Translations under genes and position numbers: made by a program
Notes under the pieces: generated by a model
Seen by the model: only the letters and a program-made list of their open reading frames with translations
What the model was told of the DNA's origin: nothing
Database searches by the model: none
In this document: one piece after another, positions 27,424 to 54,759 of the stretch
Layout of the letters: the number at the start of each line of letters is the position of its first letter
Numbering within the stretch: the first letter of the stretch is position 1
Assembly (NCBI GenBank): GCA_001606155.1
Contig: LODT01000035.1
Location: forward strand, 1,416,658 to 1,480,657
Source of the DNA: Tieghemostelium lacteum
Lineage: Eukaryota > Evosea > Eumycetozoa > Dictyosteliales > Raperosteliaceae
Direction of reading: 5' to 3'
DNA: 64,000 nt

Positions 27424-30400
27424 TTAGTTTTCTTCCCAATTACCATTTTTAAGATCATCTAAAGCCTTGTCGAAAGAATCTTGGATGGAAGTTGGAGATT
27501 CACTACGATTTGGGGTGGATGATGGTGATTTCTTTTTAGGTGGGAGTTTGGATGAAGAGGATTTTGGAGGAGATGAAGTTGTCATGTGATCTTCCAGGAA
27601 GGAGAAAGTATTCATTTGTTGAGTGGCTTTATAGAACTCTGATGGTAATTGTTCAGGTTTCTTTTGTGAGGTATTTTGTGTTAGATAATTGGAGGTATTG
27701 AATGAAGGAACAATGGAATCAAAGAGAGTAGGATCATCAGAATATACACAATTATCAAATGGAATGGATTTTAATTGTGTAACTTGATTGAAATTGAATT
27801 GATCATTGAATACAGCTAGACATGTGAAATTATCAATCCACAGTAATTTATATTTACCATCAAATTCTTGAAGTACATTTACAATGTGTTCAGTCTTTAT
27901 GAATTCATTTAGATTCTTAAAGAGAAGAGTTGGATTGGCAATCAATTGAGTTTCAATGACTGGTGTATTGATACTGATAGAAGCATAACTCTGACTTCCA
28001 CCAATAGTTGGTGATGTTAATGTAGATGTTTGAATACTATCTGAGAGTCTTGGAGATGGAATCTGTGATGTTGATTTTCTAAAGACCTCAATGAGATTCT
28101 GAAGTGGTCTATCACGAATTCTGAATTGATAGAGTTTCAATACCTGAAGGATAAAGAAATGTTGAATGGAATCATTGTATTTCAATGTCAATTTCAAGTT
28201 ATTTGTACCTAAATAGTCATTGAGAATCTGTTCGAGTTTCTTTATACTCTTTGGAGATGCTTTACAAAACAATTGTAAATGTTCATATTGTATATCACTT
28301 TCAAGACCTCCATCAATTAAAGTGTTGCTAATATCCACACTATTCATTGTACTGTTGATATTTGATGTATTTGAAGATACACCTTGGTTACCATTGGAAG
28401 ATGTAGTGGTTGTAGTTGTATTTGAACTTGATCCAGTTGGACTATTACTATCAATTCCAAAAGCCTCTTTTAATTTCTTATCACGTTCTTCACGTTCACA
28501 AACTTCATCGCATTCCAATTGTCTAGTTTGATCATTTCCAGAACATAAAGATTCCACTGATCTTCTTTGACAAGGACAATAGATTTTAATCTTTTGTTTA
28601 CAAATTTGATCTGGTGGACAAGGTTGATCTGGGTGACATGGGAAACTACACCCATGTGTGCAAGTAGTCAGAGGAATACCACAAGGATATCCACAACCTT
28701 CTTGAGAACATTGTTGATCTGATTTCTCAGATATGCAAGGTCCACTGTGACATGTCTTTGGACAAGTATGTTTAAGACATCCTAGAATCTTTCCACAGAC
28801 TCTACCACATGAAACCTCAGTTGTACAACATTTAATGTTCTTTCTCATTTCATGACCTCCAGCACACATCTTATCCATCAATACCACACAAGGTGGACAA
28901 GCTCCACTATGACAGGTATGTTGAATAATCTCTGATTGTTTATGTCCACATTCACGTTCCTTCTGACACGGATGGATACAAACTGGAGGTTTAGTACCAC
29001 AAGGTACCGGAGGCAGTATAACAGTCTTTCCACAAGGACATGCCAAATCTTCATAGCTGTTAAGATAACAGTTAAAACATTTGTTTTGGTGACATAATTG
29101 TTGACATTTATGTACACCACATTTCAATGGTCTTCCACATACCAATGTACAAACATGTGCACCACTTGGATCCTCAGGATGTAAAGCAGATGGACAGCAT
29201 TTAATACCACATTCATGCTTCTTACATGATCTAAGAGTTCGACAAACATGATTACACAAGAATGCCGATCCCTGAGTCAAAAGATTCTGATGTACAATAC
29301 CACACTGTCTATTCTCACTAGTCTTCCCGCATCGACATGATGTCTTTACTTTAACCTTACACAATCCACAGTCTCCTGTATGACATTTCTCCTGACAATA
29401 GTGTTCACCACACTGCAGTTGTTTCATACATTTTTTCTGACAAACTGGTATAGGGTCTAGACAAGAGGTTCTGGTGACCCCAAGGTCCAAAAGTGAGGTT
29501 TGAGAACATTGGCATTGTTGAATCAAGTCAGGTGTCAATTGACATGGTTCACAAGGTCCTTTATGACATGGTTTCTGACATTGATGATTCTTACAATTCA
29601 GAGTTCTTTGACACTTTTCTTGACAACTAAAGTATCTAGGATCAGTTGAGGTATCTGAGAAACCAGGTGTAGTGTCAAGGTCACCTGTACCACAAAGTTT
29701 CTGTTCAATTTGTTTACCACAATAACATTTTTGAGTTTCCAAAATATTACATGGTTTACAAATACCAGAATGGCATTGGTCTTGACAAGTGTGTTTATGG
29801 CAATCCAATGGTCTCTTACAAACACCATCACAGGATTTACCTTTATCTACTTCACCACAAAGTATACGATATTCAGTAGCACCACAAAAACACTTTTTAA
29901 CATCACCCAAAGAGATACAAGGCAAACATGCACCAGGATGACACTGCATATTACATCTATGTGGACATGAACTGGTCTTTGCACCTTTGGGTTTAGCACA
30001 AACCTCCCCGCAACTATGTGGAAGATAGTAAGGGTTATACAAAGGGTCACGTTGTTTACCGCAGTAACATGTAGCTGTAAAACAACTATTGATAGTCAAT
30101 CTATTTTCATGAACATGTCTACATCCAGGACATTTCCATTTACCATCATTACTCTTTACAATAGTTGTAGTGTTACTTACAGTTGTAGTACCACTAGCTG
30201 ATGTTGAAGTAGGTGCTGATTTATTAGCCCATTGATTAATACAATCAATATGAAACATGGTATAACAAGATTCACAATTGATAACTTGTGATTTCTTACT
30301 GATAATATCATAACAAATCATACATTCATAATTGTTATTTTGAATCTTGTTTATCATTTGTATTGCCAATGGTGTGAATTCTAAATTCTTTAAATCATCC

Positions 30401-31308
30401 TCTTTATAAATTATATTAATTTTTTCATTTGATCTTCTAATTCCACTGCTACCCTGTTGTTGTTGTTGTTGTTTGTTTTTTCTTTCATTTCTTTTATTCA
30501 AATAATTATTATTATTAATATTGTTATTTGAATTTACTTGTTGTGTTGTTTGTTTTTTATTATTATTATTATTAGTTGAATTAGGTAATTGTTTTTTAGA
30601 TTGAAGTGGTACAGGTTTTTGTGGTGGTGGTGATTTCTTTGAAGATACTTGTTGATCTTGTTGATTTACTTTATCAGGTGGTGGTTTTTTATCATTTCTC
30701 CTAGATCTACTATTTGTAGACTTTGAATTGGATACTAAGTTATTATTGTTAGTTTCATTCGAGTTTACAATTGTAGGTACAAAAGGAGTGGAATTTGGAT
30801 TCAATTTAGTTGTTGTATTAAATTGTTTTTGTTGCCAATTTAAACTATCTTTAGTTGATTCTTTTGTTGTAGTTGTTGTTGTTGTAGTTGTTGCAACAGG
30901 AGTAGTAATAGTACTAGCTGTTGTTGTTGCAGTTGGTGATGTTGGTGGTAACAAATTCTCTTTTGGACTATACACAAATATTTCGTTAGTTTGTGGGTCA
31001 AATTGATAGTTACTATCACTCTGTGAGCTCAAATCTTTACTATTAGTAGTAGTTTGTACTCTATTTCTAGGTTTAGAACCTTTATATCTATTATTCTTAT
31101 TATTAGAATTTGATGATATATTATTAGTTGAAGTAGTTGTTGAAGTAGTTGTTGAAGTAGTACCAGTCATACGTTGTTTTTGTTGATTAGTGTTAATATT
31201 ATTTCTACTTTCTAGCTTTTCTACTGTTGTTGTTGTTGTTGTTGTTGGTAAACTATTAATGTTTGGGGGATGATTTTTTTCAGGAGGCTCCCGATTATTT
31301 ATGTCCAT
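27424..31308 (-). CDS. nfx1: NF-X1-type zinc-finger protein
   Basis: Single exon, 1294 residues from the ATG at 31308; an in-frame TTG further upstream is not needed. The first 330 residues are low complexity (Asn, Gln, Thr, Pro). A RING/PHD-like finger follows (CMICYDIISK, then HIDCINQWA and CPGCRHVH), then a row of NF-X1 zinc fingers of the form C-x-x-x-C-x-x-x-C-H-x-G-x-C-x-x-C. The C-terminal 330 residues are less conserved and may include an R3H-like region. This is the layout of human NFX1, yeast FAP1 and Drosophila shuttle craft. Family members bind DNA or RNA and can act as E3 ligases through the RING-like finger. Confidence 0.93.
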   Translation of the reverse strand: MDINNREPPEKNHPPNINSLPTTTTTTTVEKLESRNNINTNQQKQRMTGTTSTTTSTTTSTNNISSNSNNKNNRYKGSKPRNRVQTTTNSKDLSSQSDSNYQFDPQTNEIFVYSPKENLLPPTSPTATTTASTITTPVATTTTTTTTTKESTKDSLNWQQKQFNTTTKLNPNSTPFVPTIVNSNETNNNNLVSNSKSTNSRSRRNDKKPPPDKVNQQDQQVSSKKSPPPQKPVPLQSKKQLPNSTNNNNNKKQTTQQVNSNNNINNNNYLNKRNERKNKQQQQQQGSSGIRRSNEKINIIYKEDDLKNLEFTPLAIQMINKIQNNNYECMICYDIISKKSQVINCESCYTMFHIDCINQWANKSAPTSTSASGTTTVSNTTTIVKSNDGKWKCPGCRHVHENRLTINSCFTATCYCGKQRDPLYNPYYLPHSCGEVCAKPKGAKTSSCPHRCNMQCHPGACLPCISLGDVKKCFCGATEYRILCGEVDKGKSCDGVCKRPLDCHKHTCQDQCHSGICKPCNILETQKCYCGKQIEQKLCGTGDLDTTPGFSDTSTDPRYFSCQEKCQRTLNCKNHQCQKPCHKGPCEPCQLTPDLIQQCQCSQTSLLDLGVTRTSCLDPIPVCQKKCMKQLQCGEHYCQEKCHTGDCGLCKVKVKTSCRCGKTSENRQCGIVHQNLLTQGSAFLCNHVCRTLRSCKKHECGIKCCPSALHPEDPSGAHVCTLVCGRPLKCGVHKCQQLCHQNKCFNCYLNSYEDLACPCGKTVILPPVPCGTKPPVCIHPCQKERECGHKQSEIIQHTCHSGACPPCVVLMDKMCAGGHEMRKNIKCCTTEVSCGRVCGKILGCLKHTCPKTCHSGPCISEKSDQQCSQEGCGYPCGIPLTTCTHGCSFPCHPDQPCPPDQICKQKIKIYCPCQRRSVESLCSGNDQTRQLECDEVCEREERDKKLKEAFGIDSNSPTGSSSNTTTTTTSSNGNQGVSSNTSNINSTMNSVDISNTLIDGGLESDIQYEHLQLFCKASPKSIKKLEQILNDYLGTNNLKLTLKYNDSIQHFFILQVLKLYQFRIRDRPLQNLIEVFRKSTSQIPSPRLSDSIQTSTLTSPTIGGSQSYASISINTPVIETQLIANPTLLFKNLNEFIKTEHIVNVLQEFDGKYKLLWIDNFTCLAVFNDQFNFNQVTQLKSIPFDNCVYSDDPTLFDSIVPSFNTSNYLTQNTSQKKPEQLPSEFYKATQQMNTFSFLEDHMTTSSPPKSSSSKLPPKKKSPSSTPNRSESPTSIQDSFDKALDDLKNGNWEEN

Positions 31309-31548
31309 TCTGACACAAATCTTGAGAAACAAATGCAAATAAAGAAATAATTAATAAAAATAAAAAAAAAATTTTTTCAATTCTTTTAAGGATCAGTTTT
31401 GGGAAAATTTCATGAAAACTGACTTTTAGTAAAAACAACATATGTTGAAGTTTTGGGTTTTTTGAAAATACTTCATTTTGGGGTTTGTTGTGAAACCCTT
31501 TTTTAAAGTTTTATTATAATTTTACAAAAATGAAGTGTTTAGAGTGGG

Positions 31549-34344
31549 CTATTGTTTATTAGTATCAGAAGATGGAAGATCATCTGTGGAACTTGTAGTT
31601 GAAGGTGACATTGATGATGAAGAACTATTCATTTCAATATCACCACTAGAGGGTATGGGTGAACTTGATGAATTTGGAGATGGAATTACACTACTACTAC
31701 CACTACTACTCATACTACTACTGCTACTACTACTACCACTACATGCCAATGAAGATGACGAAGAAGATGAAAATGAATTACTTAAAGGCACTGGAATGGG
31801 TATACTAGACATTGGATTGGGTTGAAATAAACTAATTTTTGAATTTGATTTTATAGTGTCTTTTAACTTCATGTGTGATGTAGGTATTGTAGTGACTACT
31901 GACGATGTTGATGTCAATGTAGGAGAGTTTGTTGAATTAGTTACAACACCTGATGACAAGGTCAAAGGTGATGTATTTGTACTACCACTGTCACCAACCA
32001 ACTGTGAAAGTATCAAAGGTGATGGTGTATCTTTTGAAGAACTGTTATCGTCACTGAAAAACATTAGATCCTTTTCCTCCTGTTCCAGTTGATGTTTAAT
32101 CAACTGATTTTCCAATAGATTACTAGTTCTAGATTGACTTTTATCCTCTGACCAACTATCTCGTCGCTTTAGTGTATGACTACGACTATTAATAGTTGGC
32201 ATTAGAGGTGAATATGTCCAATTAAGTTTTGGTGGAGATGGTTCTTGCATGTCAAGATCCGAAATTAACTTTTTTGATTTTAGCTCCAAAGCATCAAATT
32301 CTTGTGTAAAAGTTTTTAATTTGGGGGATGAAAGTTTTTCAATGAGCGGTGATGGTTGGGGTTGAGACTGATCTTGAGATTGTTGAGGTGAATTGTTGAA
32401 TGTAACACTACCATTAACAGTAGATGTAACACCGTTACCTAAAGTTGAAGATGTAGATAACAAAGATGTTGAAGGCGAAGATGAAGATGTTGGACCAAAT
32501 TGATTTTGAAATTGAGGTAAAGTAGATAGAATCTTTATAAGACTTTGCTTTTTAGTCTCAGAATGCTGTGATTTTGTAGGTGACATTATAACGTTATTAA
32601 CCTGGTCTATATAGTACTTGTCTTGGTCAACATCGGTATACTGTGGCCATATAAACTGGTATTGAATATCACCATTATTTACATAATTACTATTTGTATA
32701 CAAATAGTTAAACTTAAAATAAAACACCCTTCTATCACCATTAGAAACCCTATGAAATGTCGCTTCTTTGTAATCAAACAAAAAAGATTTTTCAATTTTC
32801 ATTGAAACATGGGATCTCCATGAAATTTGAAAATTTGAAATTCCAATTTTTACCAAACTGAAATGACCTTTAGTTATCACAGGCTCAACCATTTTACTAT
32901 TACTATTATATAAACACAATCCAGCTGGAAATTCACAGATTATCTTTGGACTCTTGTACAGAAACATTACATTAGTAGGTACAGATTTACCAACATTTGG
33001 AGGAGGCTGTGCCGTCAGTGATATAGATGTAGGTGTTGCACTAGTTGTTGGTAACATTCCCTTACTATTCGGTATAGGTGATATAGGTTGTGTAGGTGAT
33101 CTGGAACTATTCAATTTTCTCATAGTTTGAAGAAATTCCATATAAAGTTCTTCTTTTTGTTGTTGTATATCCTGTGTCTCTTTTAAAGATTCTTCTAAAT
33201 CTTTAGTATTCTCGTTACTGCTATTATTATTATTTGAAGATCTAATTTGATTTAAACTTTCATTTAAAGCCTTAATCTTTGTTATACCACTTAGAAACTT
33301 CTCTCTAACTGAATTAAATTTATCTTCTATATCTTTAAAATTATTATTATTCTTTACATTCGTACTATTACTATTATTACTATTAATATTTGGTGAACCT
33401 TGTTGATTTCTTTTATTATAATCCAAAATTAAATTATAATGTAAAAACTTTGATTTTAAAATTCGATTTGTTTCACCCCCTTGTTTTCTACAATTTGCGC
33501 TACCACCAACTCCCACACCACTACCTACTATTACATTATTATGAGCATTATTATTATTATTATTTGAATTTGTTAAACCTGATATTTTTTGTTGTTGTTG
33601 TGGTATTATACTTGTTGATGTTGAAGTTGAATTTGAAGATGGAGGTAAAATATCTCTATAATAACCAATTAAAAACTTATTCTTTATAATCAAATCTTCA
33701 CCAGGTTGAACAAAATCCATAAAGCATCTATTCAATATAGAATAAGATGACGTGTAAAGTGCCTCTATAGATCGATAATCATTATCTCCAAATGAAACAA
33801 TACCTAAATTAATTTGATTGTTCCTATAATACATTCCTTCATTTGATAAATAATCAGATCTTTATAAGAAATGTTAGTAATTAATTGAAATTCTAAATTT
33901 ATTTGAAAGAAAATATATAAAAACATACGGTAAATTCCCAATCGGACTACCTATAAATAATAATAATTGTTTGGTTTTGAATTGATTGGTTGATAATTTG
34001 TTTCGGAATATTAAATGTATAGTTGATAGAGAGTCTTTTAGATTACATTCACCATTTAATGGTATATCACTGAAATCCAGTGAGGTTCTGTTAGTTGATG
34101 TCATGATCTTTAGTACCTGCGGTGACCTAGCCATTCCAATAATATAGATAGTAAAAGGTATTTTATAATGTTCAAATTTCTCTATATATCTAATGATGGC
34201 GATATACTGTGACATCAGTCTACTCGATGTCAAGTAGTCTCCATTTAACATCCACTGTGAATTATCTATACCAATAACTAACAGTACTTCTTCTTTTAGA
34301 TATTTGTTTGTAACAATAGTACTATTGTTATTATTATTTATCAT
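31549..34344 (-). CDS. RPN10-like VWA plus RPN13-like Pru domain protein
   Basis: Two exons, 34344-33929 and 33859-31549, joined in phase 2, 908 residues. Residues about 15-200 are a VWA domain close to proteasome subunit RPN10: IGIDNSQWMLNGDY matches its VCVDNSEYMRNGD, LLFIGSPIGN matches IAFVGSPVED, and LGIVSFGDND matches the next strand. After an Asn/Ser linker and a coiled-coil-like Glu/Gln region, residues about 443-563 match the Pru domain of RPN13/ADRM1: CEFPAGLCLY, KGHFSLVKIG, FQISWRS, FLFDYKEATFHRV, RRVFYFKF and YQFIWPQYTDVDQDKY. No ubiquitin-interacting motif is visible. The C-terminal 340 residues are Ser-rich and disordered. Both folds belong to ubiquitin receptors of the 26S proteasome, so a ubiquitin or proteasome adaptor role is the natural inference. 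It seems additional to, not a replacement for, normal RPN10 and RPN13. Confidence 0.8.
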
Positions 34345-34852: not shown

Positions 34853-35900
<1,048 letters not shown>

Positions 35901-36598
35901 AGCTTTTAACCTTCTTTTAAAATCCTACACTCTATTCTAAAGATTCTGAAGATTCTGAAAAATACACTTTTAGTAAACAAACTTTATTCTCAATCCAAAA
36001 GAAAAATCAAAACAATCACACTAGTGACATTAATACCTTTATATTCCTCTCCCCTCCCACTCCAACTCCATCAACAATATCAATTCCTTTCAACTAAAAA
36101 ACACCATTATTAAATATATATACACTACACCCTTTTCAAATAATAATCATATTTTCAATTGTTTTGAAATGAAACCCACTTCCCACAAATACCATTCCAT
36201 ACTTTCCCCTCCACTGTTCTAACACTATTTTTAATACTACCAATACCATAAAACCAAATTTGTAATTGCAATCAAAAAAAAAATATCAATCTCGATTTTT
36301 TTAATTTATTTCTTTTTTTCTTTCTTTTTAATTATAATAATGATCAAGAAATATATAATGGATCAAGAAATGGGGAAAAGATATTTATATTTTCCACAAA
36401 ATCCAAAGATCACAACACATACACATTCGTTTAAATTTTAAAAAGTTTGAATTTTTTGAGTGTGTATTTTAGCATTGGTATAAAAGATTAAGAAGGTCAA
36501 ATTCAATGAAAATATCTATTTTTTTTTTAACAACAAAAAATTTATTTTTTTTTTCAAATTTTTTTGAATTTGTGTTAAAAAGACAAAAAGTAACAACC
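35901..36598. other. Intergenic, no gene seen
   Basis: 698 bp between two tandem small-GTPase genes. It contains C-rich and CCCTCCC-type stretches early on and T runs near 36520-36560 before the next ATG. Presumably 3' UTR plus promoter. Confidence 0.55.
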
Positions 36599-37955
36599 AT
36601 GTCAAGCATGAATATGAGTATTTCATCAAGGTATGATCATGCATTTAATTGAAAGTTTTTCTTTCCATCAAGCAATGGAAACACAAAATCAACTTAGTTT
36701 ACCAATCATTTTTCAAAACATTTTTTTTCAATTTTTTATGTTTTTTTTTTTTGTAAATTTGATTACCACTACCACCCTCTACTCTTCTTAATACCTACAA
36801 CTCAACATCACCTCTTTATCTATACAATTGACAATATACATTGGAACTCTTAGTATTAATACATAAATACATTTGAATATTGAATGAATAATAACAGTGA
36901 CATTTCTTTAAAGATTGTGGTTGTTGGTGATACAGGTAATGGAAAATCAAGTCTTATATGGAGATTTTGTGTATGATATCAAATTATTCAATTTGGATTT
37001 TAAGATTTTACATTATATTTACAATCTATTGATAATTGTATACAATAGGAAGGTACATTCCCGAATGCAGAACAATCAAATATAACAGTTTTAAATTCAA
37101 TTGTATGATTTAGCAGATTTGATTTAGTAGATTTAATTGTGTTTAACAGAATGTTACTAATACTGTTTTTAAAATTATAGAAATCTAAAGCCATTCAATT
37201 TGGAAAAAAACAATTAGTTATTAAATTTGTATGTTTATTTATGTATATTTATTATTTAGATTGGTTAGGTGAATGATTAGATATTAATATAAAAGAATGT
37301 AGCATGACACAGCAGGACAAGAAAGATTTAGAACCATTTCAAGATCATTTTATTCCAGCACTGATATAATAATTCTAACTTATGATGCAAGCGTTCAAGC
37401 ATCTTTTGAACATGTATCATTATGGTATAACGAAATTCAGAGATATTCAAATAATCCTAAACTATATATAGCACTAGCCAGTACAAAATCAGATTTACCA
37501 GCAGTGGTTGATTCCACTCTTGGTCAGAAACTAGCAGATGAAAAGAAAATACCATTTTTTGAGACTTCTTCATTGAATAATGAAGGTGTTGATGATTTAC
37601 TTCAACATGTTATAAAAGGAGCTGGTGAAAAGTAATTATTACCCATACACACAAATTTAAAATATCCTCACTACAAAACCTTTTTGATTTACTAATTGAT
37701 CTACTCTTACCAATTTACTCAAAAACAAAAAAAACAAAAAATATCTTTTGGTGTTTACTTTTTTTGAAACTATTTAAATGTGTTTCTATTTTTAGAATTT
37801 ATACAGAAGAGAATTGGAATAGATTTAAAGTTAGAAATGAAAAGGACCATACTGCATCTCGTAAACCAACTCAAATGAGTTCAATCAATACAAATAACAA
37901 TAATAATAATAACAATACAGAACCAAAAAAATCATCTTTTTGTATAATTTTATAA
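36599..37955 (+). CDS. Atypical Ras-like small GTPase with CaaX box
   Basis: Six exons: 36599-36630, 36898-36970, 37049-37102, 37181-37228, 37303-37631 and 37796-37955 (231 residues). The P-loop is GDTGNGKSS and switch II is HDTAGQERFR, with the catalytic Gln kept and His in place of the usual Trp before DTAGQ. The guanine-specificity motif is TKSD rather than NKxD, and the last motif is ETSS. Between P-loop and switch II the sequence is unlike Rab or Ras. The tail has an Asn run, then KKSSFCIIL, a CaaX box ending in Leu and so likely geranylgeranylated. It follows rab2A on the same strand but is not a close paralogue. No assignment to Rab, Ras, Rho or Rap is possible by eye. Confidence 0.82.
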
Positions 37956-39666: not shown

Positions 39667-41448
39667 ATGAAATCCAATAATAGCATAGAGTTTCCAAAAC
39701 TACTGTTTATAAAGATATTTGAATATTTACAGTATAATTATGAATCTTCAAAATCATATGATAATTATAGTAACAAATTTAAGATTTATAAATTGATTAG
39801 ACTGTTAAATAGAGAATATAGAGATACTGTAGCACAAAAGTTTAGATACCGTTTTTTAGTGGCTGGTAATGATTCCATGAAATCATTACTATCTTTACAA
39901 TGTGATGATATGGAGATGGCTAATGTTACAATGCATTTACATGAAACTGTTTTAAATAGTTGGAGGAAACATAAGGATAGATTGTTACCTTTAATAAATA
40001 GATTATATGTTGGTACATCTCCTGATGCTTTGGGTGATTTTAAAAATAGCTCTTCATTGGTCTTTGCATCAGTTCCAAATTACAATGCACTACAATCACC
40101 ATTTCCAGAGTGTAAAGATACTTTAGATTCATTACACATTACCGTATCCAAACAATATGATATGCAGGTATTCTCTGAAATTTATAAAAACTATATGCAG
40201 TTAAATTCTTTGAAATTTGGTGGGTTTAATTTAAAGTGTGTTTTGGAGAATTTTCAAAGTATAACATTGTTAACAACACTGAACACACTCTATCTATATT
40301 CAGTGAAAATTAAACAATCTGATATAGTATATGTAGTCAACACCTCAAAATGTATAAATACATTAGTATTAGACATGATAGAAATTCAAAATGAAAATAT
40401 ATTCAATATGACTGGTGTAGATGATATCATAGATGCACTTGCAACTTCAAAAGTCATTACAACATTTGAATTCAACAATCTATCTTCTAGCTACGTTCTA
40501 ACTATCACCTTAAAATCTTTGGTTTCCATGTTAAACAGAAACTCTACTCTTAAACACTTAGTTTTAGAGTACATGGTATTAACCAAACCCTCCATAATTG
40601 TAAATCAAGAAGATTTCAGTATATACAATAACACATTGGTTTCACTTCGAACACCAGCCACTAGCATTCTAATAGAACTCACAAAATACTATGGAGGTTT
40701 GGAATTTCATTGGAATTCCAATTCAAATTTGAAATCTCTAAATTTTCATGTTCATAAAAGTAACCCATTTCTGTCATCTATAAAATCAAACTATCACCAT
40801 TTCTCTATACACACATTGTACTATTATCACCTGGAAACTGGAATCAGAGATAAGGAATGGGAATTCCTCATCCCTATTCTAGAGATGAAAATACCCACAC
40901 TTTCAACCCTTCTAATTCATAGTAGAAACAGTACACTAGATAAAGAAAGTGTAACTATTCTTTTTGAATCCATTGCCAATTGTCAAACATTGACTACTTT
41001 AGATATCAAAGTAGCAATACCCAGTGACAATGCACTAAAATTCATTGCTTTCAATCTACCCCACATTCAAAACCTTTATTTGAATATAAGTTGTCAAAAA
41101 TATAAGTTTTTTCAGAATTTGGGGGAGAGTTTGTTTAATAATACCTCAATTTCTGTGTTGTCTATAGGAGATATGGAATGCCATATACCAGTACAACTAT
41201 TTATTCCGTCCTTGATAACTTGGGTTAACCATACTCATTTGACTTCACTGACCATTGCTACAAATTACGAAATACCTCAAATCTTTAGTGATATTGATCA
41301 ATTATATACTGAATATAAGAATGCATTAGAATGCAATCTGTATCATCTCAGAAATTTAAAATTTACTTCTATGGCTGGTGGACCTCATCACCAAAAACTT
41401 ACAAAATTTGATCAACTTTTACATAAATTCTTTTTATATGAAAATTAG
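39667..41448 (+). CDS. F-box-like/LRR family protein, cluster copy A
   Basis: Single exon, 593 residues. The F-box-like N-terminus reads IEFPKLLFIKIFEYLQYNYE, followed by YKLIRLLNREYRD. The rest is LRR-like, including blocks shared by all cluster copies: a block near 295 (SMLNRNSTLKHLVLEYMVL), NNTLVSLRT, FHWNSNSNLKSLNF, and a C-terminal FDQLLHKFFL. It is the first of four tandem genes on the plus strand and the most diverged of the four at its 5' end. A substrate-adaptor role in SCF ubiquitin ligases is inferred from the F-box-like fold, not shown. Confidence 0.82.
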   Translation: MKSNNSIEFPKLLFIKIFEYLQYNYESSKSYDNYSNKFKIYKLIRLLNREYRDTVAQKFRYRFLVAGNDSMKSLLSLQCDDMEMANVTMHLHETVLNSWRKHKDRLLPLINRLYVGTSPDALGDFKNSSSLVFASVPNYNALQSPFPECKDTLDSLHITVSKQYDMQVFSEIYKNYMQLNSLKFGGFNLKCVLENFQSITLLTTLNTLYLYSVKIKQSDIVYVVNTSKCINTLVLDMIEIQNENIFNMTGVDDIIDALATSKVITTFEFNNLSSSYVLTITLKSLVSMLNRNSTLKHLVLEYMVLTKPSIIVNQEDFSIYNNTLVSLRTPATSILIELTKYYGGLEFHWNSNSNLKSLNFHVHKSNPFLSSIKSNYHHFSIHTLYYYHLETGIRDKEWEFLIPILEMKIPTLSTLLIHSRNSTLDKESVTILFESIANCQTLTTLDIKVAIPSDNALKFIAFNLPHIQNLYLNISCQKYKFFQNLGESLFNNTSISVLSIGDMECHIPVQLFIPSLITWVNHTHLTSLTIATNYEIPQIFSDIDQLYTEYKNALECNLYHLRNLKFTSMAGGPHHQKLTKFDQLLHKFFLYEN

Positions 41449-41566
41449 GCCTAATAAATATTGAAAATGATAATTTTGTTTACTTGATTTGGTCAACAAC
41501 GTTTTTATTTTTAGGTTCTTTGTAAATTCTAATTTTTTTTTCTCATTTTACAAAAATGATTAAATA

Positions 41567-43330
41567 ATGGATAATATAGAGTTTCCAAAGCTATTATTTA
41601 TAAAGTTATTTAAATATTTACAATATAATTATGAATCTAGAGAAATTAATGAATTCAAAATTTATAAATTGATTAGAGTTTTAAATAGAGATTATAGAGA
41701 TAATATTGCACCTAAATTCAAATATGAAAGGGATGTCAATTCTATCAGCCAATTACAGTATCTTACATGTTTGGGTGATACTGATAGAGAAATGTTAAAT
41801 ATTTCAATGCATGTATATGGTATAACAATAGAAGATTGGTTAGAGTTGTTGGCTCAGAATAGTAATTTAGTACCAAAGATAAATAGTTTTTATTTTGGAA
41901 TACACAAGTTTCCTATAGAATGTTTTAGTGATCATTCTTCAGATAAGTTACCTTTATTTCTACAGTGTAGAGATTCATTGGAATCTATAGAGACATCAAT
42001 ACAGGATATACATGATATCTCAATGATCACTGAGATATTTAAAGACTTTAAACGTCTTAAATATATAACGTTTAATGATAAAAAAGATCCCAATACATTA
42101 TCCAATCTACAGAGTATTTTAATATTGAATACTCTAACTAATTTTACAATACAATCTGTAAAAGTTACTGAAATGGAATTAAAATTTATAATTGAAAAGA
42201 CACAACACATCACTACTATGGTTATTGATAAATGTAATATTTTAAATGACCAATCTTATCTATGTACATCTTTAGATTTAGTAATGGATTCACTTTCAAT
42301 GTCAAAAGTTATAACAAACTTTAAGTTCAATTCAGTCTACACATATAAAAATTATATATCCCTAAAGTGTTTGGTATTCATGTTGAATACCAATACAATT
42401 CTTAAACACTTATTTTTGGAAGGAATGCTATTTACAAGACCTGTTGAGGACAGTGAAGATTTTCACATTTACAACAATACACTTCACACTCTTGACACCC
42501 TGAATTCATATTTAAAAATTGACAATATAAATTCACATATGGGGGGCTTGGAATTTTATTGGAATACTAAATCCAATTTGAAAACATTGAATCTTACCAT
42601 TCAATTCACAAACCCATTTGTGAAGAATATACGTTCAAATTTTAAACATTTTAAAATTCAGTCTTTGGTCTATAATAATAGAGAATTGAATAGAAAAATG
42701 TCAGAATGGGAACATTTAGTTCCAATTCTTAGAGTGAATATACCAACACTGACACATTTGGAGATTATAAGTTCTAATAGATCATTGAAAGATGACAGTC
42801 TGTCAGTACTCTTTAAAGCCATTTCAAAATGTAAATCCCTAACTTCACTAGATATCAAGCCATTGATACACGCTGACAGTGTATTTAAGCTTACCAAATT
42901 GAATTTAACTAAACTAAACCTAAATGTCAGTTCCCAACTATCATTCTATCAAAAACTTGCCTTAGTAATTCGAGAAAATGTCTCTATAAAAGAGATTTCC
43001 ATTAAAGATACTACCAGTAGAAGACCAATATTTGAGTTTATCCAATCCATTTTATCACTAATCTCCCATGCACCATTAACCTCCATTTCCTTTTCTTTAT
43101 CTTGTAACCTCTCAAACCATACTGATGAGGAAATTGACCATTTGTATTCTCAATTTGAAAGTACACTAAGAGGTAACCTCTATCATCTCACAAATTTAAA
43201 TATCTCAGGATTATATTCTTACATCCAATTCAGTTTTAAATATAAAATTGATATCGAATCTCAAAAATATCTAAAGTTTATTAATCTACTTCACCAACTC
43301 TTTTTAATTCAAAACACAAATAAATTATAA
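41567..43330 (+). CDS. F-box-like/LRR family protein, cluster copy B
   Basis: Single exon, 587 residues, starting 118 bp after copy A. The N-terminus IEFPKLLFIKLFKYLQYNYE is family-typical. DNA at 41660-41719 (IYKLIRVLNRDYRDNIAPKF region) is identical to copy C although the rest of the protein is well diverged. LRR-like blocks FMLNTNTILKHLFLEGMLF, FYWNTKSNLKTLNLT and HLYSQFESTLRGNLYHLTNL follow the cluster pattern. The C-terminus is slightly extended (LLHQLFLIQNTNKL). Confidence 0.82.
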   Translation: MDNIEFPKLLFIKLFKYLQYNYESREINEFKIYKLIRVLNRDYRDNIAPKFKYERDVNSISQLQYLTCLGDTDREMLNISMHVYGITIEDWLELLAQNSNLVPKINSFYFGIHKFPIECFSDHSSDKLPLFLQCRDSLESIETSIQDIHDISMITEIFKDFKRLKYITFNDKKDPNTLSNLQSILILNTLTNFTIQSVKVTEMELKFIIEKTQHITTMVIDKCNILNDQSYLCTSLDLVMDSLSMSKVITNFKFNSVYTYKNYISLKCLVFMLNTNTILKHLFLEGMLFTRPVEDSEDFHIYNNTLHTLDTLNSYLKIDNINSHMGGLEFYWNTKSNLKTLNLTIQFTNPFVKNIRSNFKHFKIQSLVYNNRELNRKMSEWEHLVPILRVNIPTLTHLEIISSNRSLKDDSLSVLFKAISKCKSLTSLDIKPLIHADSVFKLTKLNLTKLNLNVSSQLSFYQKLALVIRENVSIKEISIKDTTSRRPIFEFIQSILSLISHAPLTSISFSLSCNLSNHTDEEIDHLYSQFESTLRGNLYHLTNLNISGLYSYIQFSFKYKIDIESQKYLKFINLLHQLFLIQNTNKL

Positions 43331-43429
43331 TCCTAATGTGTAATAACCTAATCAAACATGAAAATCCAAAATTTTCATTTATTATTATTTTTTTAAATAG
43401 TGTTTTTTAAGTTACTTTTTATTTGTAAA

Positions 43430-45166
43430 ATGAACAGTAATAGAATAGAGTTACCAAAGATATTGTTTATAAAGATATTTAAATATTTACAATATAATTA
43501 TGAATCTATAGAAATTAAGATATTCAAGATTTATAAATTGATTAGAGTTTTAAATAGAGATTATAGAGATAATATTGCACCTAAATTCGAATACGAATAT
43601 ATAATTAGAAATGAATTTGATTTAGAATCATTAATATCAATGGATATTAGTGATATATTAATGGCAAATCTGACAATCTACAGTTCACATGTTATTAAGT
43701 GTTTATCTAGAAGATATATACATATATTACTACCATTAATTAATCACTTTTACACTTGTATAGATCTAGGAGATCTAAACTTTCTTAATGACCCAACAAC
43801 ACTACAATTGTCACAAATATACTATCAATTAAACAATCTACTTGTGAAACCTAGAGTGAATATTGAAACTCTTCAAATAACATTTTCAGGAGATTTTGTA
43901 GTGACATCTGAAACTCTAATAGAATTTAAGAATCTAAAATCACTTAAACTTACCAATATATCACTCAAAACATGGTTTTTTGTAGTCAATGGGGTTGAAT
44001 GGTTTTCTAAACTATGTAATTTAACAACACTACATTTACATGTATTAATCATTTACCAAAATGATTTGATAAATCTCATATCAAAATCACAATCAATAAC
44101 TTCAATGGTATTGGAAAGGGTTAAATTAACAAATGAAAAATTAACTGTGTCTACATCTAATGACCTATTCGATACATTATCAACATCAAAGTTTATAACC
44201 AACTTTGTGTATCAGAATGAAAACAAACCAATATACACTGTAAACCTTTCATTTAAATCTCTAGTTAACATGTTGAACACCAATTCAATTCTAAAACGAT
44301 TAAAACTATCAAATTTTGTGGTGGATTTTGAAGAGAACCTTTTCATTAGTAACAATACAATAGAGTCAATTTCTACATCTGACTTTAGAATTGTTAGTCC
44401 CAATAGAACATTTCATCAAGGATCTTTAGTATTATATTGGAATGTACCTTCCAATTTAAAAGAGCTAGACTATTTTGAAAATTGTCTATTGGATGAACCT
44501 GAATATCACCATAACCATTTCTATATACAAACTCTAAACTATTATCTAAGTGACCAATCCCTCAAAGATTGGGCACATTTAAAACAGATATTGGAATGTA
44601 GTAAGCATACATTAACAATTCTATGTATACTTTCTACCTATGATAGAAGGAGTGTTGATTTCCCTACACTCTTTAATATCATTTCCAATTTTAAATCTAT
44701 TACAACTCTTGAAATTTATATTGATGTACCAACTGGGCCCGCATTACATTTCATTCGTATGAATATTCCAAATATTAAAAATCTGTACATCAAGGTCAAA
44801 CCTAATAATACGACATTTTTGAATTTATTAGGTGATGTAATGAAATTCAATAATTCAATTGAAAATCTACACATTTGTGACAATCAGTATTATAAACCTG
44901 TATTTGAGTTTTTTAAATCTCTTTTACCACTGATTAACCATCAATCATTAACATTAATAACTGTCATTTCCATCTATGATTCATCACCTCAAATTGATTC
45001 TGAAATTGATCATTTATATAATGAATTTGAAAAATACCTAAAACTCAATCTACATCATCTAAGGAAACTAAAATTTAAAACACCTTCTGAGAGTGATTAC
45101 CCAAAGTACCAGAAGTTTGTAACTTTAGTCCATAAGCTATTTCTAAATGATAATTGGTCAAAGTGA
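43430..45166 (+). CDS. F-box-like/LRR family protein, cluster copy C
   Basis: Single exon, 578 residues from the ATG at 43430. An in-frame GTG at 43400 would add ten residues with no family match, so ATG is preferred. The N-terminus IELPKILFIKIFKYLQYNYE precedes the block shared with B and D. It is closest to copy D: both share the blocks FDTLSTSK, SFKSLVNMLNTNSILKRL or nearly so, FYWNVPSNLK or LYWNVPSNLK, NIPNIKNLYIKVK and FLNLLGDVMKFNNSIENL. The gap to copy B is 99 bp, leaving little room for a promoter. Confidence 0.82.
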   Translation: MNSNRIELPKILFIKIFKYLQYNYESIEIKIFKIYKLIRVLNRDYRDNIAPKFEYEYIIRNEFDLESLISMDISDILMANLTIYSSHVIKCLSRRYIHILLPLINHFYTCIDLGDLNFLNDPTTLQLSQIYYQLNNLLVKPRVNIETLQITFSGDFVVTSETLIEFKNLKSLKLTNISLKTWFFVVNGVEWFSKLCNLTTLHLHVLIIYQNDLINLISKSQSITSMVLERVKLTNEKLTVSTSNDLFDTLSTSKFITNFVYQNENKPIYTVNLSFKSLVNMLNTNSILKRLKLSNFVVDFEENLFISNNTIESISTSDFRIVSPNRTFHQGSLVLYWNVPSNLKELDYFENCLLDEPEYHHNHFYIQTLNYYLSDQSLKDWAHLKQILECSKHTLTILCILSTYDRRSVDFPTLFNIISNFKSITTLEIYIDVPTGPALHFIRMNIPNIKNLYIKVKPNNTTFLNLLGDVMKFNNSIENLHICDNQYYKPVFEFFKSLLPLINHQSLTLITVISIYDSSPQIDSEIDHLYNEFEKYLKLNLHHLRKLKFKTPSESDYPKYQKFVTLVHKLFLNDNWSK

Positions 45167-45239
45167 AGATCTATTTAAATAAACTTAAAATATTTATGTT
45201 TTTATTTTAATTTTTTTCAGGAGCAAACTCAATATTGAA

Positions 45240-46979
45240 ATGAATAATAATAGCATAGAGTTCCCAAAGATATTGTTTATAAAGATTTTTGAATATTTAC
45301 AATATAATTATGAATCTATTGATATAAATAAATACAAGATTTATAAATTGATTAGAGTTTTAAATAGAGATTATAGAGATAATATTGCTCCTAAATTCAA
45401 ATATAAATATATTGTAAGAGATAAAAAGGAATTAGAATCACTGTTGTCAATAGATATTAGTGATTTATCGATGGTAGATCTTACAATCTACATGTCAAAT
45501 GATTTTAAGGAGTTATATAAAAGAAATCAACATGTATTACAACCTTTAATTAAGCAATATCATTCTAGTTTAGCTCAAGGAATACAAAATGATTTTAGAA
45601 AGTCAACATCATTACATTTTGTAAGAACACATTACCAATCAACTATTCCATTTTTATACCCTAAAGATACTATTGATACACTTCATATAACATTTTCCAA
45701 AATTGCAGATTTAGTGGTGATTTACAAGATTCTAAAATACTACAAGATCTTAAATTCTCTTAAACTTGGTAGTCTACTAAATTTGGTGTGGATTGATGTT
45801 AATGGATTACAATGCATATCTAAATTACCAAACTTGACATTTCTACATTTACACTCATCACATGTCATAGAAAGCGAATTGATATATCTCATATCAAACT
45901 CACATACCATCACATCAATGGTATTAGAAAATATTGGTCTAAACAATGAAGATAGTGAACCTGTATCTACAGTCGACTCTTTATTCGATACATTATCAAC
46001 ATCAAAGTATCTAACCGACTTTACCTTTCACAATCAAATGAAAGGTGTTCCTATGGTTAAACTATCATTTAGATCTCTAGTTAACATGCTAAATACCAAT
46101 TCCATTTTAAAGCGATTAACGATATCATTCTTTTCAATGCCTTTTGAAGAGAACCTTTACATTTGTAACAACACACTTGAGTATCTTACCACCAATTTAA
46201 TTTCTATGGAAACTCCAACAAGCCGATTTGCAAGAGCAACTTTTGAATTCTATTGGAATGTACCTTCCAATTTAAAAAGACTAAACTATTTTGAACAGGG
46301 TCTGCTTGATGAATTTGGAAATAGATATAACCATTTCCAACTACAAACCTTAAACTATGCTTTAGAGGCCCCAAAATATAAAAAATGGGCATATTTAAGA
46401 CAGTTACTGGAATTCACAAAGAATTCACTACAAAATCTACGTCTACTCTGTAATACTTCTTTGAGAATAGAATATGATTACCCAAAACTATTTAAAATCA
46501 TCTCCAATTATAGATCCATTGTGAATCTCGAATTATTTATTGATGTACCAAGTGAAGATGCTCTAAATCTTATTCAAATGAATATTCCAAATATTAAAAC
46601 TCTCTATCTCAAAGTCAAATCTCATAATACCACATTTTTGAATTCATTAGGTGATGTATTGAAATTCAATAATTCAATTGAAAATCTACAAATTTGTGAC
46701 AACGAGCAATATAAACCGGTATTTGAGTTTATTCAATCTCTAATACCACTGATAAATCATCAATCACTGACATCATTAACCATTATTGCCGTCTATAATC
46801 TATCATCACACACTGTCTCTGAAATTGATCAATTATATGATGAATTTGAAAAAAATCTAAAACTCAATCTACATCATCTAAAGAAACTAAAGTTAATTGA
46901 TGTACCTGAAAGTAGTCTTCACCCACAGTACCAAAAGTTTGTAACACTATTAAACAAACTATTTCTTAATAACCCATAA
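45240..46979 (+). CDS. F-box-like/LRR family protein, cluster copy D
   Basis: Single exon, 579 residues, only 73 bp after copy C. The N-terminus IEFPKILFIKIFEYLQYNYE is followed by the shared block with a single base difference from B and C. Throughout, it is the nearest paralogue of copy C, suggesting the most recent duplication in the row. The last LRR-like unit ends LHHLKKLKLIDVPES and FVTLLNKLFLNN. The role is inferred as for the other copies. Confidence 0.82.
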   Translation: MNNNSIEFPKILFIKIFEYLQYNYESIDINKYKIYKLIRVLNRDYRDNIAPKFKYKYIVRDKKELESLLSIDISDLSMVDLTIYMSNDFKELYKRNQHVLQPLIKQYHSSLAQGIQNDFRKSTSLHFVRTHYQSTIPFLYPKDTIDTLHITFSKIADLVVIYKILKYYKILNSLKLGSLLNLVWIDVNGLQCISKLPNLTFLHLHSSHVIESELIYLISNSHTITSMVLENIGLNNEDSEPVSTVDSLFDTLSTSKYLTDFTFHNQMKGVPMVKLSFRSLVNMLNTNSILKRLTISFFSMPFEENLYICNNTLEYLTTNLISMETPTSRFARATFEFYWNVPSNLKRLNYFEQGLLDEFGNRYNHFQLQTLNYALEAPKYKKWAYLRQLLEFTKNSLQNLRLLCNTSLRIEYDYPKLFKIISNYRSIVNLELFIDVPSEDALNLIQMNIPNIKTLYLKVKSHNTTFLNSLGDVLKFNNSIENLQICDNEQYKPVFEFIQSLIPLINHQSLTSLTIIAVYNLSSHTVSEIDQLYDEFEKNLKLNLHHLKKLKLIDVPESSLHPQYQKFVTLLNKLFLNNP

Positions 46980-50756: not shown

Positions 50757-52433
50757 ATGTTACCTAGGATATTAATAATTAAAATTATAGATTATATAAA
50801 ATATAATTTTAAGAATAGTATAATATGGTTTGAAAACTTATTATTGGTTAATAAAGAATGGAGAGATTACATTGTACCAAAGATTAGATCAATCAGATTT
50901 AATGTAGATAAAATTGAGAGCCATTTTAGCAAGTTATCAAATAGAGATGGTGTAGAATTAAGTTTATCATTAAGAGGAAACAAAGATATAGATGATTACA
51001 TTAATAAATGGAATTCATTAAGTATTGATGATAATATAACATTTATATCAATACACAATAGTAATATAATACCAACAATTCGAAAAGCACCCAAACTACA
51101 AAACCTAATACTAGATAAATCGGGTAGAGATTGTAATGATATTCTACAGTTTATCAATAGTAATGAGAATATACAACATTTAGATACATTAAAGATTATA
51201 ATGCCACCTGGTGTAGATCTTCGTCTAAATCAACAAGTAACTTCAACAATTCTACAAAATCTAAAAAAATTAGAGCTAGTAGGTGGCGTATCTATTCATC
51301 TCTTTGGACTTGACTTTATAGTTGAATTAGAAAATCTAGAGAGTATCTCAGTAATGAAATATAAAGTCAGTTTTGAATCTATTATAAATCTCTTGGAGAA
51401 TACAAAGTGTATTGATATTCAACTATCATCTTTGGAGTTCACTGCCACTGATCAGAATCAAAAGCATGTAGATGATCTATTACAATCAATTACTCTATCT
51501 AAAACCATTAAAGTGTTAGATTTCTACTATTCACTGCCATTCAATGTCATCATTGACCATTTAGTTAATTTTCTAAATACTACCCCAAACTTGAAACAAC
51601 TTCTTTGTGGTAATGGATTTTTAGTCTCTAAAAACCTAAATAATAATGAAAATTATGTATCTAATCTTTCCATTGTCAATAATACCATAGAAATTTTTCT
51701 ATTCGAATCTCCGGTGGTAACAATGTATGATACTAAAGATAATTATAGTATTTATAGTTTATGGACAGTTCCATCAAATCTTAATGAATTAGATTTAACA
51801 GGTTTACCTGGAATTCCTATTGAAAGCTTGATGAAATATCATAACAAATGTTCTGAACTTTACATTTATGGAAGTGATGTTTCATCATTTCCTATTGATG
51901 TGGTGGCATTAAACTTACCAAATCTCATTTGGTTTTCCTTCGATACAGAGAAATCTACTGATTTCAACGCAGTGGAGTTTATAGAAAAACTACAAATGAA
52001 TAACCATCTCACCTATCTAAACCTAGGTTGTCAAATGGACTGTAATTTAATGTGTCAACTGATATCTCAAAATCATCCAACCATTCAGACTATAAACTGT
52101 TTTACTATTACCAATTGGAATCTATCAAACATAATCGACTCACTATTAAGTAATAGAAATATAACATCCGTATATTTCCTTAAAGCAAATTCTGTAAAAA
52201 CTGAAGAATCTTCAGAATATATCCATCAGATTATCAGATTACTTGAAAACAATGAGCTTTCCAATATATGTATTGAAGGTATTGCCAAATCCATTTATAC
52301 TCAAGATGATATGGATCAATTTGAAAAAACAATACAATTACATGGCCATAAAATTGTAAATCTTGTTATGTTACCAAATGATAACAAAAACATTACAAAA
52401 ATTCTAAATAAGTATTTAATTTACTTAAATTAA
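50757..52433 (+). CDS. F-box-like/LRR family protein, outlier copy E
   Basis: Single exon, 558 residues. The F-box-like start is LPRILIIKIIDYIKYNFKNS, followed by LLLVNKEWRDYIVPKIRSI. LRR-like strands follow (LQNLILDKSGRDCNDIL, ENLESISVMKY). The shared motif WTVPSNLNELDLTG corresponds to FYWNVPSNLKxL of the cluster. It lies 3.8 kb beyond the four-gene cluster with three unrelated genes between. It is clearly more diverged and lacks the 60 bp conserved block. Confidence 0.78.
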   Translation: MLPRILIIKIIDYIKYNFKNSIIWFENLLLVNKEWRDYIVPKIRSIRFNVDKIESHFSKLSNRDGVELSLSLRGNKDIDDYINKWNSLSIDDNITFISIHNSNIIPTIRKAPKLQNLILDKSGRDCNDILQFINSNENIQHLDTLKIIMPPGVDLRLNQQVTSTILQNLKKLELVGGVSIHLFGLDFIVELENLESISVMKYKVSFESIINLLENTKCIDIQLSSLEFTATDQNQKHVDDLLQSITLSKTIKVLDFYYSLPFNVIIDHLVNFLNTTPNLKQLLCGNGFLVSKNLNNNENYVSNLSIVNNTIEIFLFESPVVTMYDTKDNYSIYSLWTVPSNLNELDLTGLPGIPIESLMKYHNKCSELYIYGSDVSSFPIDVVALNLPNLIWFSFDTEKSTDFNAVEFIEKLQMNNHLTYLNLGCQMDCNLMCQLISQNHPTIQTINCFTITNWNLSNIIDSLLSNRNITSVYFLKANSVKTEESSEYIHQIIRLLENNELSNICIEGIAKSIYTQDDMDQFEKTIQLHGHKIVNLVMLPNDNKNITKILNKYLIYLN

Positions 52434-52644: not shown

Positions 52645-54759
52645 ATGTCTTGGAGATTAGAAGTTGATAGAGGTAGACAAGTTTGGAAATTTGATGAAGT
52701 AAAAACAGATAAACCAAAAGATGTAGATGTACATTTATTAGGATTACAAACACCAGGTACCAGTTGTCCAGAGGGTTGCAATTTAACCCCTGCAAAATCA
52801 CCACATGAATCCATTTTAAAGGGTTTGACTTACTTTTCAAAAGTTCAAACTGAGGATGGTCATTGGGCAGGTGATTATGGTGGACCAATGTTTTTGTTAC
52901 CTGGTTTGATTATAACCTGTTATGTCACTGGTTACACTCTACCTGAACCACATCAGAAAGAGATTACCAGATACCTTTACAATATTCAAAATAAGAATGA
53001 TGGTGGATGGGGACTTCACATTGAAGCAAAATCTGATATCTTTGGAACTGCACTACAATATGTTTCTCTAAGAATTCTCGGTCAATCCGAAGACGAACCA
53101 AATATGAAAAGAGCTAGAGAATTTTTACAAAAAAATGGTGGTGCTGTGGGAATTCCATCGTGGGGTAAGTTCTGGTTGGCTACTTTAAATGTCTATAAAT
53201 GGGAGGGTTTAAATCCAATTCCTATCGAGTTCTGGTTGCTTCCTTATAAGGTACCAGTTTGTCCAGGACGTTGGTGGTGTCATTGTAGAATGGTGTATTT
53301 ACCAATGTCTTATCTATACGCTAGAAGAACTACTGCAGCTGAGACACCACTCATCAAACAACTACGTAAAGAACTCTATGTTACAGACTATGACAAAATC
53401 AATTGGCCTGAACAGAGAAATAACATCTCACCTTTGGATATGTATAATCCTCATACTCTATTACTTAAAGGTGTAAACTACGCTTTGTCTCTCTACGAGA
53501 AAGTTCACAGTTCATGGCTTAGAGATAAAGCCATTGACCATACTTTTGATCATATTCGATTTGAAGACGAACAGACAAAGTATATCGATATCGGTCCTGT
53601 TAATAAGACTCTTAATATGCTTTGTGTATGGGATAGAGAAGGTAAATCACCAAATTTCTACAAACATGCTGATAGACTATTTGATTATCTGTGGTTATCT
53701 AACGATGGTATGAAAATGCAGGGTTATAACGGTTCACAATTATGGGATACTGCTTTTACAATTCAAGCATTTTTAGAGACTGGTTTGACAAATTCAAAGG
53801 AATTCCAAGAGACAATGTTGAAAGCAAATCATTATTTGGATATTACTCAAGTTCCAGAGAATGCTCCAGATATGGATAAATACTTTAGACATATATCTAA
53901 AGGTGCTTGGCCATTCTCTACTGTGGATCACGGTTGGCCAATTTCAGATTGTACAGCTGAAGGTATAAAAGCTGCTTTGGCTTTAAGACAACTTCCTTAT
54001 ATTACACCAATATCATTGGAACGTGTATCCGATGGTATTAATGTGGTTTTAAGTCTACAAAACAAGAATGGTGGTTGGGCATCTTATGAGAATACTCGTG
54101 GTCCTAATTGGACTGAGAAATTCAATCCATCAGAGGTATTTAATAATATCATGATTGATTATAGTTATGTTGAATGTTCAGCAGCTTGTATTCAAGCCAT
54201 GTCCTCATTCCTCAAACACATAACACCCACACACCCACAATACAAATTGTGTAAAAATTCCATTGCACGTGGTGTCAAATTTATTAAAGGTATTCAAAGA
54301 GAAGACGGTTCATGGTTAGGTAGTTGGGGTATTTGTTTTACCTATGGTACTTGGTTTGGTGTTGAAGGTTTAGTTGCATCTGGTGAACCTTTATCCTCAC
54401 CATCCATCATTAAAGCATGTAAATTCCTCTTATCAAAACAGAGATCCGATGGAGGTTGGGGTGAATCTTTCATGTCTAATGTTACCAAAAACTACGTTCA
54501 ACACGAACAAGCTCAAATTGTCAATACTGCATGGGCATTACTCTCTCTAATGTCTGCTAAATACCCAGACAGAGAACCAATTGAAAGAGGTATTCGATAT
54601 CTAATCTCAAAACAATATCCAAATGGTGATTTCCCACAAGAATCCATCATTGGTGTATTTAATTTCAATTGTATGATTAGTTATTCTAATTATAAAAATA
54701 TTTTCCCATTATGGGCATTAGCTAGATACAATAATTTATATTTAAAATCTAAAATCTAA
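52645..54759 (+). CDS. cas1: Cycloartenol synthase
   Basis: Single exon, 704 residues, near the length of other eukaryotic oxidosqualene cyclases. It folds 2,3-oxidosqualene into cycloartenol, the first cyclic precursor of amoebal sterols, on ER or lipid-droplet membranes. The catalytic DCTAE motif has its Asp at residue 435. The residues before it (HGWPISDCTAE) include His and Ile at the positions that in plants mark cycloartenol synthase; lanosterol synthases usually have Val at the Ile position. QW repeats (EDGHWAGDYGG, NKNDGGWG, NKNGGWASYE, EDGSWLGSWG, SDGGWGES) are present along the chain. The start gives the standard MSWRL N-terminus. Confidence 0.97.
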   Translation: MSWRLEVDRGRQVWKFDEVKTDKPKDVDVHLLGLQTPGTSCPEGCNLTPAKSPHESILKGLTYFSKVQTEDGHWAGDYGGPMFLLPGLIITCYVTGYTLPEPHQKEITRYLYNIQNKNDGGWGLHIEAKSDIFGTALQYVSLRILGQSEDEPNMKRAREFLQKNGGAVGIPSWGKFWLATLNVYKWEGLNPIPIEFWLLPYKVPVCPGRWWCHCRMVYLPMSYLYARRTTAAETPLIKQLRKELYVTDYDKINWPEQRNNISPLDMYNPHTLLLKGVNYALSLYEKVHSSWLRDKAIDHTFDHIRFEDEQTKYIDIGPVNKTLNMLCVWDREGKSPNFYKHADRLFDYLWLSNDGMKMQGYNGSQLWDTAFTIQAFLETGLTNSKEFQETMLKANHYLDITQVPENAPDMDKYFRHISKGAWPFSTVDHGWPISDCTAEGIKAALALRQLPYITPISLERVSDGINVVLSLQNKNGGWASYENTRGPNWTEKFNPSEVFNNIMIDYSYVECSAACIQAMSSFLKHITPTHPQYKLCKNSIARGVKFIKGIQREDGSWLGSWGICFTYGTWFGVEGLVASGEPLSSPSIIKACKFLLSKQRSDGGWGESFMSNVTKNYVQHEQAQIVNTAWALLSLMSAKYPDREPIERGIRYLISKQYPNGDFPQESIIGVFNFNCMISYSNYKNIFPLWALARYNNLYLKSKI

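Follow-up and report, generated by a model that had tools for sequence, protein, structure and literature searches.

An RPN10-type VWA domain and an RPN13-type Pru domain in one gene model of Tieghemostelium lacteum

The 19S particle is described in the accessible text of a 2026 review as 'largely invariant' in composition, save for reduced parasite particles and plant isoforms (PMC13022661). According to the available part of one survey, the complete set of PA700 subunits has orthologues except in Giardia and Trichomonas (PMC4453063). In the accessible portion of an Arabidopsis study, homozygous rpn10-2 without RPN13 was never recovered (0/1348). Recovery was restored by the RPN13 Q70 variant, which is defective in ubiquitin binding alone, and only partly by the R67 variant, which is defective in both RPN2 and ubiquitin binding (PMC11546751). 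These results link the two docking functions to each other genetically. In D. discoideum, Adrm1 has been studied in the Phg2 pathway, as excerpts of the report describe (PMC6830349).

The original prediction held that no natural fusion of a VWA and a Pru domain was known. In agreement with this, the literature searched mentions no VWA-Pru protein in its accessible text; the architecture may already be present in some automatic annotation. Here we describe a gene with both domains in the window, the whole stretch of 64,000 nucleotides that was analysed. A natural fusion of two receptors, present in addition to the two normal genes, would open a new route to alternative caps. With this fusion, the proteasome may have an additional part or a regulator that has gone unrecognised. 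With both domains in one protein, the RPN10-RPN13 genetic link becomes testable in an amoeba.

Gene model and neighbouring genes

The coordinates, the strand and the intron of the fusion gene were as originally predicted, and re-translation agreed with them (Table 1). The spliced translation has a single terminal stop. The overall observation, an RPN10-type VWA and an RPN13-type Pru in one gene model, is confirmed. In the genome profile listing, the 945 frame given for this gene is the length of an intron read-through, and a 170 frame is given at the place of exon 1. The only Pfam match in the linker is a sub-threshold one to STX6_10_61_N (E 0.019). Residues 318-400 of the linker (33076-33324) form a charged stretch, which is possibly helical as judged by eye only. 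No match was found when the 64,000-nt window was scanned with Rfam at gathering thresholds and for tRNAs.

Table 1. Features of the fusion gene, in window positions.
Feature	Position	Strand	Content
Fusion gene	31549..34344	-	two exons, 908 residues
Exon 1	33929..34344	-	416 nt; residues 1-138 from the start codon on, plus two bases of codon 139
Exon 1 content	33929..34344	-	VWA, residue 23 through the strand-loop with FIGSP
Intron	33860..33928	-	69 nt, GT..AG, TACTAAC near the 3' end
Exon 2	31549..33859	-	2311 nt; VWA end, linker, Pru, C-terminal tail, stop codon
RPN10-type VWA	33661..34278	-	residues 23 to about 205, intron inside
Linker	32950..33660	-	residues 206-442 (about 240), low complexity
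RPN13-type Pru	32596..32949	-	residues 443-560; Pfam match 447-523 = 32707-32937
C-terminal tail	31552..32595	-	residues 561-908; long, Ser/Thr/Pro-rich, disordered-looking

Directly downstream of the fusion gene and on the same strand is a frame of 1304 residues (27424-31338, minus strand), in which a Pfam match to an NF-X1-type zinc finger falls just under the cut-off (1.3e-4). Two Rab/Ras-type GTPase genes lie divergent from the fusion gene at about 34853-37635 (plus strand), one recognised by Pfam Ras (35553-35897) and the other by eye from its translation (37303-37635). Further along the plus strand, four tandem frames of about 580-593 residues (39667-46979) are mutually 34-56% identical and start much like LPKILFIKIFKYLQYNYES, which is F-box-like by eye only. 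A distant relative at 50757-52433 (plus strand) is 24-26% identical to three of the array frames, and none of these five frames has a Pfam match at E ≤ 0.001. A gene of the squalene-hopene/oxidosqualene cyclase family is located at 52645-54759 (plus strand), which we presume to be an ordinary sterol cyclase.

The two domains and the separate subunit genes

An RPN10-type VWA had been predicted at the N-terminus, with a profile comparison named as the check. When residues 1-217 were searched against all solved structures, ten distinct sequences matched at E ≤ 1, the best at 7e-11. Nine of them are named RPN10, PSMD4 or S5a. The tenth, 8amz_W (6.6e-8), is named 'VWFA domain-containing protein' and was counted as RPN10-like because the genome's own RPN10 finds it as its top match (1.4e-76). 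The predicted RPN10 motifs IDNSQWMLNGDY and FIGSP are both present in the translation. Pfam VWA_2 matched at E 2.8e-5 with 25.1 bits, which is below its cut-off of 27. Compared singly with the genome's own RPN10, the VWA shares 38 of 144 residues (26%, E 6e-13); that RPN10 is identical to the human protein at 104 of 190 positions. Among 164 positions compared, 48 are invariant in the genome's own, 8amz, human and S. pombe RPN10s. The fusion keeps 21 of these, including D27-N28-S29, M32, N34-G35-D36, R42 and G132-S133-P134, and changes 27. The retained D27 is the equivalent of RPN10 D11. In Arabidopsis, D11 is needed for assembly and RPN10 D11A was undetected in 26S proteasomes, as stated in the available text of PMC11546751.

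The middle domain had been read as Pru from the motifs KGHFSLVKIG, FQISWRS, ATFHRV and YQFIWPQ, all of which were found in the translation. It matched PF04683 at E 7e-7, its 30 bits exceeding the cut-off of 25, and the lack of a significant profile match to Pru, named beforehand as the outcome that would speak against this reading, did not occur. A six-frame search of the genome (23,333,832 bases) with PF04683 returned two places, both over the cut-off, namely the exon of a separate RPN13 on C14 (1.1e-10) and the fusion gene (7.8e-7). A profile built from only the genome's own and the human RPN13 gave the fusion Pru 19.8 bits, and the best of 5000 shuffles reached 11.9. Against the own RPN13, 26 of 107 residues are identical (E 2e-4), and the Pru identities are 23-24%. 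With phmmer, the Pru stretch alone found human ADRM1 at E 0.92, ranked after a chitinase at 0.52; the Pru assignment therefore rests on the profile. Single-sequence AlphaFold2 of the Pru stretch (window 32536-32988) gave no usable model (mean pLDDT 33.4, pTM 0.28). About ten inserted residues separate the Pfam match from the W543 strand QFIWPQYTDVDQD, which aligns with human FFWMQEPKTDQD.

The lack of a UIM and a DEUBAD noted in the original prediction was borne out, as neither UIM nor RPN13_C matched the fusion at E ≤ 1 in Pfam, a scan that a strongly diverged DEUBAD might escape. Genome-wide, PF16550 gave one match from one candidate, the separate RPN13 on C14. This gene carries both Pru (4e-24) and RPN13_C (7.3e-19) over their cut-offs. 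The separate RPN10 is located on C26 near 376,000, where a five-exon model encodes 342 residues and matches RPN10-type chains down to 1.4e-76. Its UIM falls just under the Pfam cut-off (E 6.4e-4) and is sub-threshold at 0.16 in the genome-wide UIM search; among solved structures, the RPN10 model matches 2kde and 1yx4, both of human UIMs, at about 6e-6. VWA_2 gave 25 genome-wide matches at E ≤ 1 among 26 scored candidates. With the own RPN10 as query, 5 of 6 candidates matched at E ≤ 1, four being its own pieces and the fifth the fusion gene (1.9e-4), which is the only non-self match. Separate genes for both subunits, whose search had been proposed with the prediction, are thus found in the fusion's own genome. 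The idea that the fusion replaces a missing RPN10 or RPN13 was therefore rejected, and the fusion is an extra protein, to judge from its sequence an additional, strongly diverged paralogue. In collections of viral contigs (three queries, the own RPN10 among them) and prokaryote contigs (one of the other two queries), tblastn found no relative; the pattern matches numbered 10, 43 and 26 stretches for the three queries in the viral contigs and 27 in the prokaryote contigs.

The RPN2 gene of the genome (PF18004, 3e-49) ends its open frame with LPEPQPPQPFEFTD followed by the stop codon. This C-terminal end is likely the RPN13-docking tail, since the spacing of LPEPQPPQPFEFTD fits P942, P944, P945, P947, F948 and the aromatic residue 950 of human RPN2, which are RPN13 contacts in the accessible text of PMC5494190. 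From the same text, 14 positions of human RPN13 were taken as RPN2 contacts. The fusion is identical to human at 6 of them (V38, P40, V85, V93, W108 and Q110), and the genome's RPN13 at 5. Over the whole Pru alignment, 29 of 112 residues are identical between the fusion and human, and the enrichment of kept RPN2 contacts over the rest of Pru was not significant (one-sided Fisher p 0.11). Human E111 and P112 are replaced by Y546 and T547. Six ubiquitin-contact positions (S55, L56, I75, F76, D79 and F98) were taken from the available text of PMC11546751, in which the Arabidopsis counterpart of D79 is E70. The fusion and the genome's RPN13 are each identical to human at 2 of the 6. In the fusion, D79 is changed to E and, by the alignment used, L56 to N and F76 to D; both the fusion and the genome's RPN13 have a phenylalanine one position before the F76 site.

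One gene or two, and the possible role of the protein

It is very likely, judged on sequence, that VWA and Pru belong to one gene. The other explanation is that two adjacent genes were joined by a mis-modelled intron, so that exon 1 alone would make up a short VWA gene, and a Pru gene in exon 2 would start from the ATG at 33834. ATG-started frames indeed lie on either side of the intron, and the VWA piece of exon 2 alone is weakly similar to RPN10, with its score reached by 51, 4, 17 and 70 of 1000 shuffles for the own, 8amz, human and S. pombe RPN10, respectively. In contrast, the intron has the GT and AG ends, a GC content of 14.5% versus 30% and 31% in the exons, and a TACTAAC that we take to resemble the branch-point consensus. 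Splicing keeps the frame, and the unspliced frame meets two in-frame TAA codons inside the intron. The alignments with RPN10 structures cross the splice and reach residues 168-196, so exon 2, which carries Pru, also holds the end of VWA, and a split would cut inside the VWA fold. The 30 residues after the splice fit RPN10 in register, and their summed RPN10 score was reached by 1 of 20000 shuffles. Singly, it was reached by 2, 1, 1 and 162 of 5000 shuffles, the last number being for S. pombe. This segment is the top of 740 exon 2 windows for RPN10 score; among the 16,568 windows that other open frames supplied, at least 4 outscore it, and these overlap and come from one unrelated frame. By sequence, the VWA end is less strongly supported in exon 2 than Pru is. 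Two separate genes appear very unlikely.

Of the original interpretation, the gene model with VWA and Pru and without UIM or DEUBAD stood; the expression, docking, competition and function of the protein are what we infer. Our tentative preference, which we rate a little below an even chance, is an adaptor of the proteasome, either sub-stoichiometric or conditional and without a UIM or a UCH37-recruiting module, whose Pru would dock on the RPN2 tail. Pru would bind the proline-rich C-terminal tail of RPN2, the usual seat of RPN13, which is its likeliest partner because the genome encodes the docking peptide and, by identity to human, the groove is conserved about as well as in the separate RPN13. 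VWA might lean on the lid site used by RPN10, which is possible given the retained D27, or on another partner; its divergence from the genome's RPN10 may mean that the lid contacts were lost. The linker might be long enough for one protein to span both sites. Lacking a DEUBAD, the fusion would recruit no UCH37, and lacking a UIM as well, it would have a low or altered capacity as a ubiquitin receptor. It would then compete with RPN13, and perhaps with RPN10, or bring cargo held by its tail, and would resemble a competitor, an adaptor or an assembly factor more closely than a classic receptor.

A stronger version of this proposal is a bivalent alternative 19S subunit, whose VWA would occupy the RPN10 site at the same time as its Pru sits on the RPN2 tail. 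Such a protein would staple the lid to the base, exclude both standard ubiquitin receptors together with UCH37, and form a developmentally switched, ubiquitin-receptor-poor cap, which we consider doubtful. It is also rather unlikely, if less so, that the protein derives from the proteasome and has left it, with both folds serving elsewhere as generic protein-binding modules. Such a departure would fit the strong divergence of both domains (26% and 23-24% identity) from the separate subunits, which are themselves retained, as well as the long linker and tail and the ubiquitin contacts kept at 2 of 6. However, the presence of two folds specific to the proteasome in a single protein suggests that both act at the same place, and several RPN2-groove residues and the D11 equivalent of RPN10 are still in place. 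The same divergence, with many low-complexity stretches, could also be expected of a decaying copy with little function. This is very unlikely, because exon 2 is open over 770 codons (chance about 6e-28 with independent bases of exon 2 composition), GC differs by codon position over both exons (0.33, 0.40 and 0.20), and the hallmark motifs remain in both domains.

Comparison with known proteins

The VWA of TFIIH p44/Ssl1 is related to that of the fusion, and the genome's RPN10 also scores with Pfam Ssl1, at 27.2 bits for a cut-off of 27. In contrast, neither Ssl1 nor p44 was among the matches of the fusion at E ≤ 1 in Pfam or in solved structures, and a p44-type identity was rejected. Giardia has a 'reduced' VWA-containing RPN10, and the RPN10 VWA is common to both proteins. 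However, the Giardia protein is the RPN10 of Giardia itself, with no Pru mentioned in the accessible text (PMC4352536), whereas the fusion is an extra gene with Pru.

Compared with RPN10/PSMD4/S5a, the fusion has no listed UIM, is 26% identical to the own RPN10, and continues after VWA with a long linker and Pru. It shares with them an N-terminal VWA with the IDNSxxMxNGD and FxGSP motifs and the D11 equivalent. Compared with RPN13/ADRM1, it has no listed DEUBAD, its Pru is internal rather than N-terminal, it carries the insertion of about 10 residues, and the ubiquitin-contact residues L56 and F76 are changed by the alignment used. Like RPN13/ADRM1, the fusion has a Pru over the Pfam cut-off, in which the strand with W108 is kept, as are some of the residues of the RPN2 groove.
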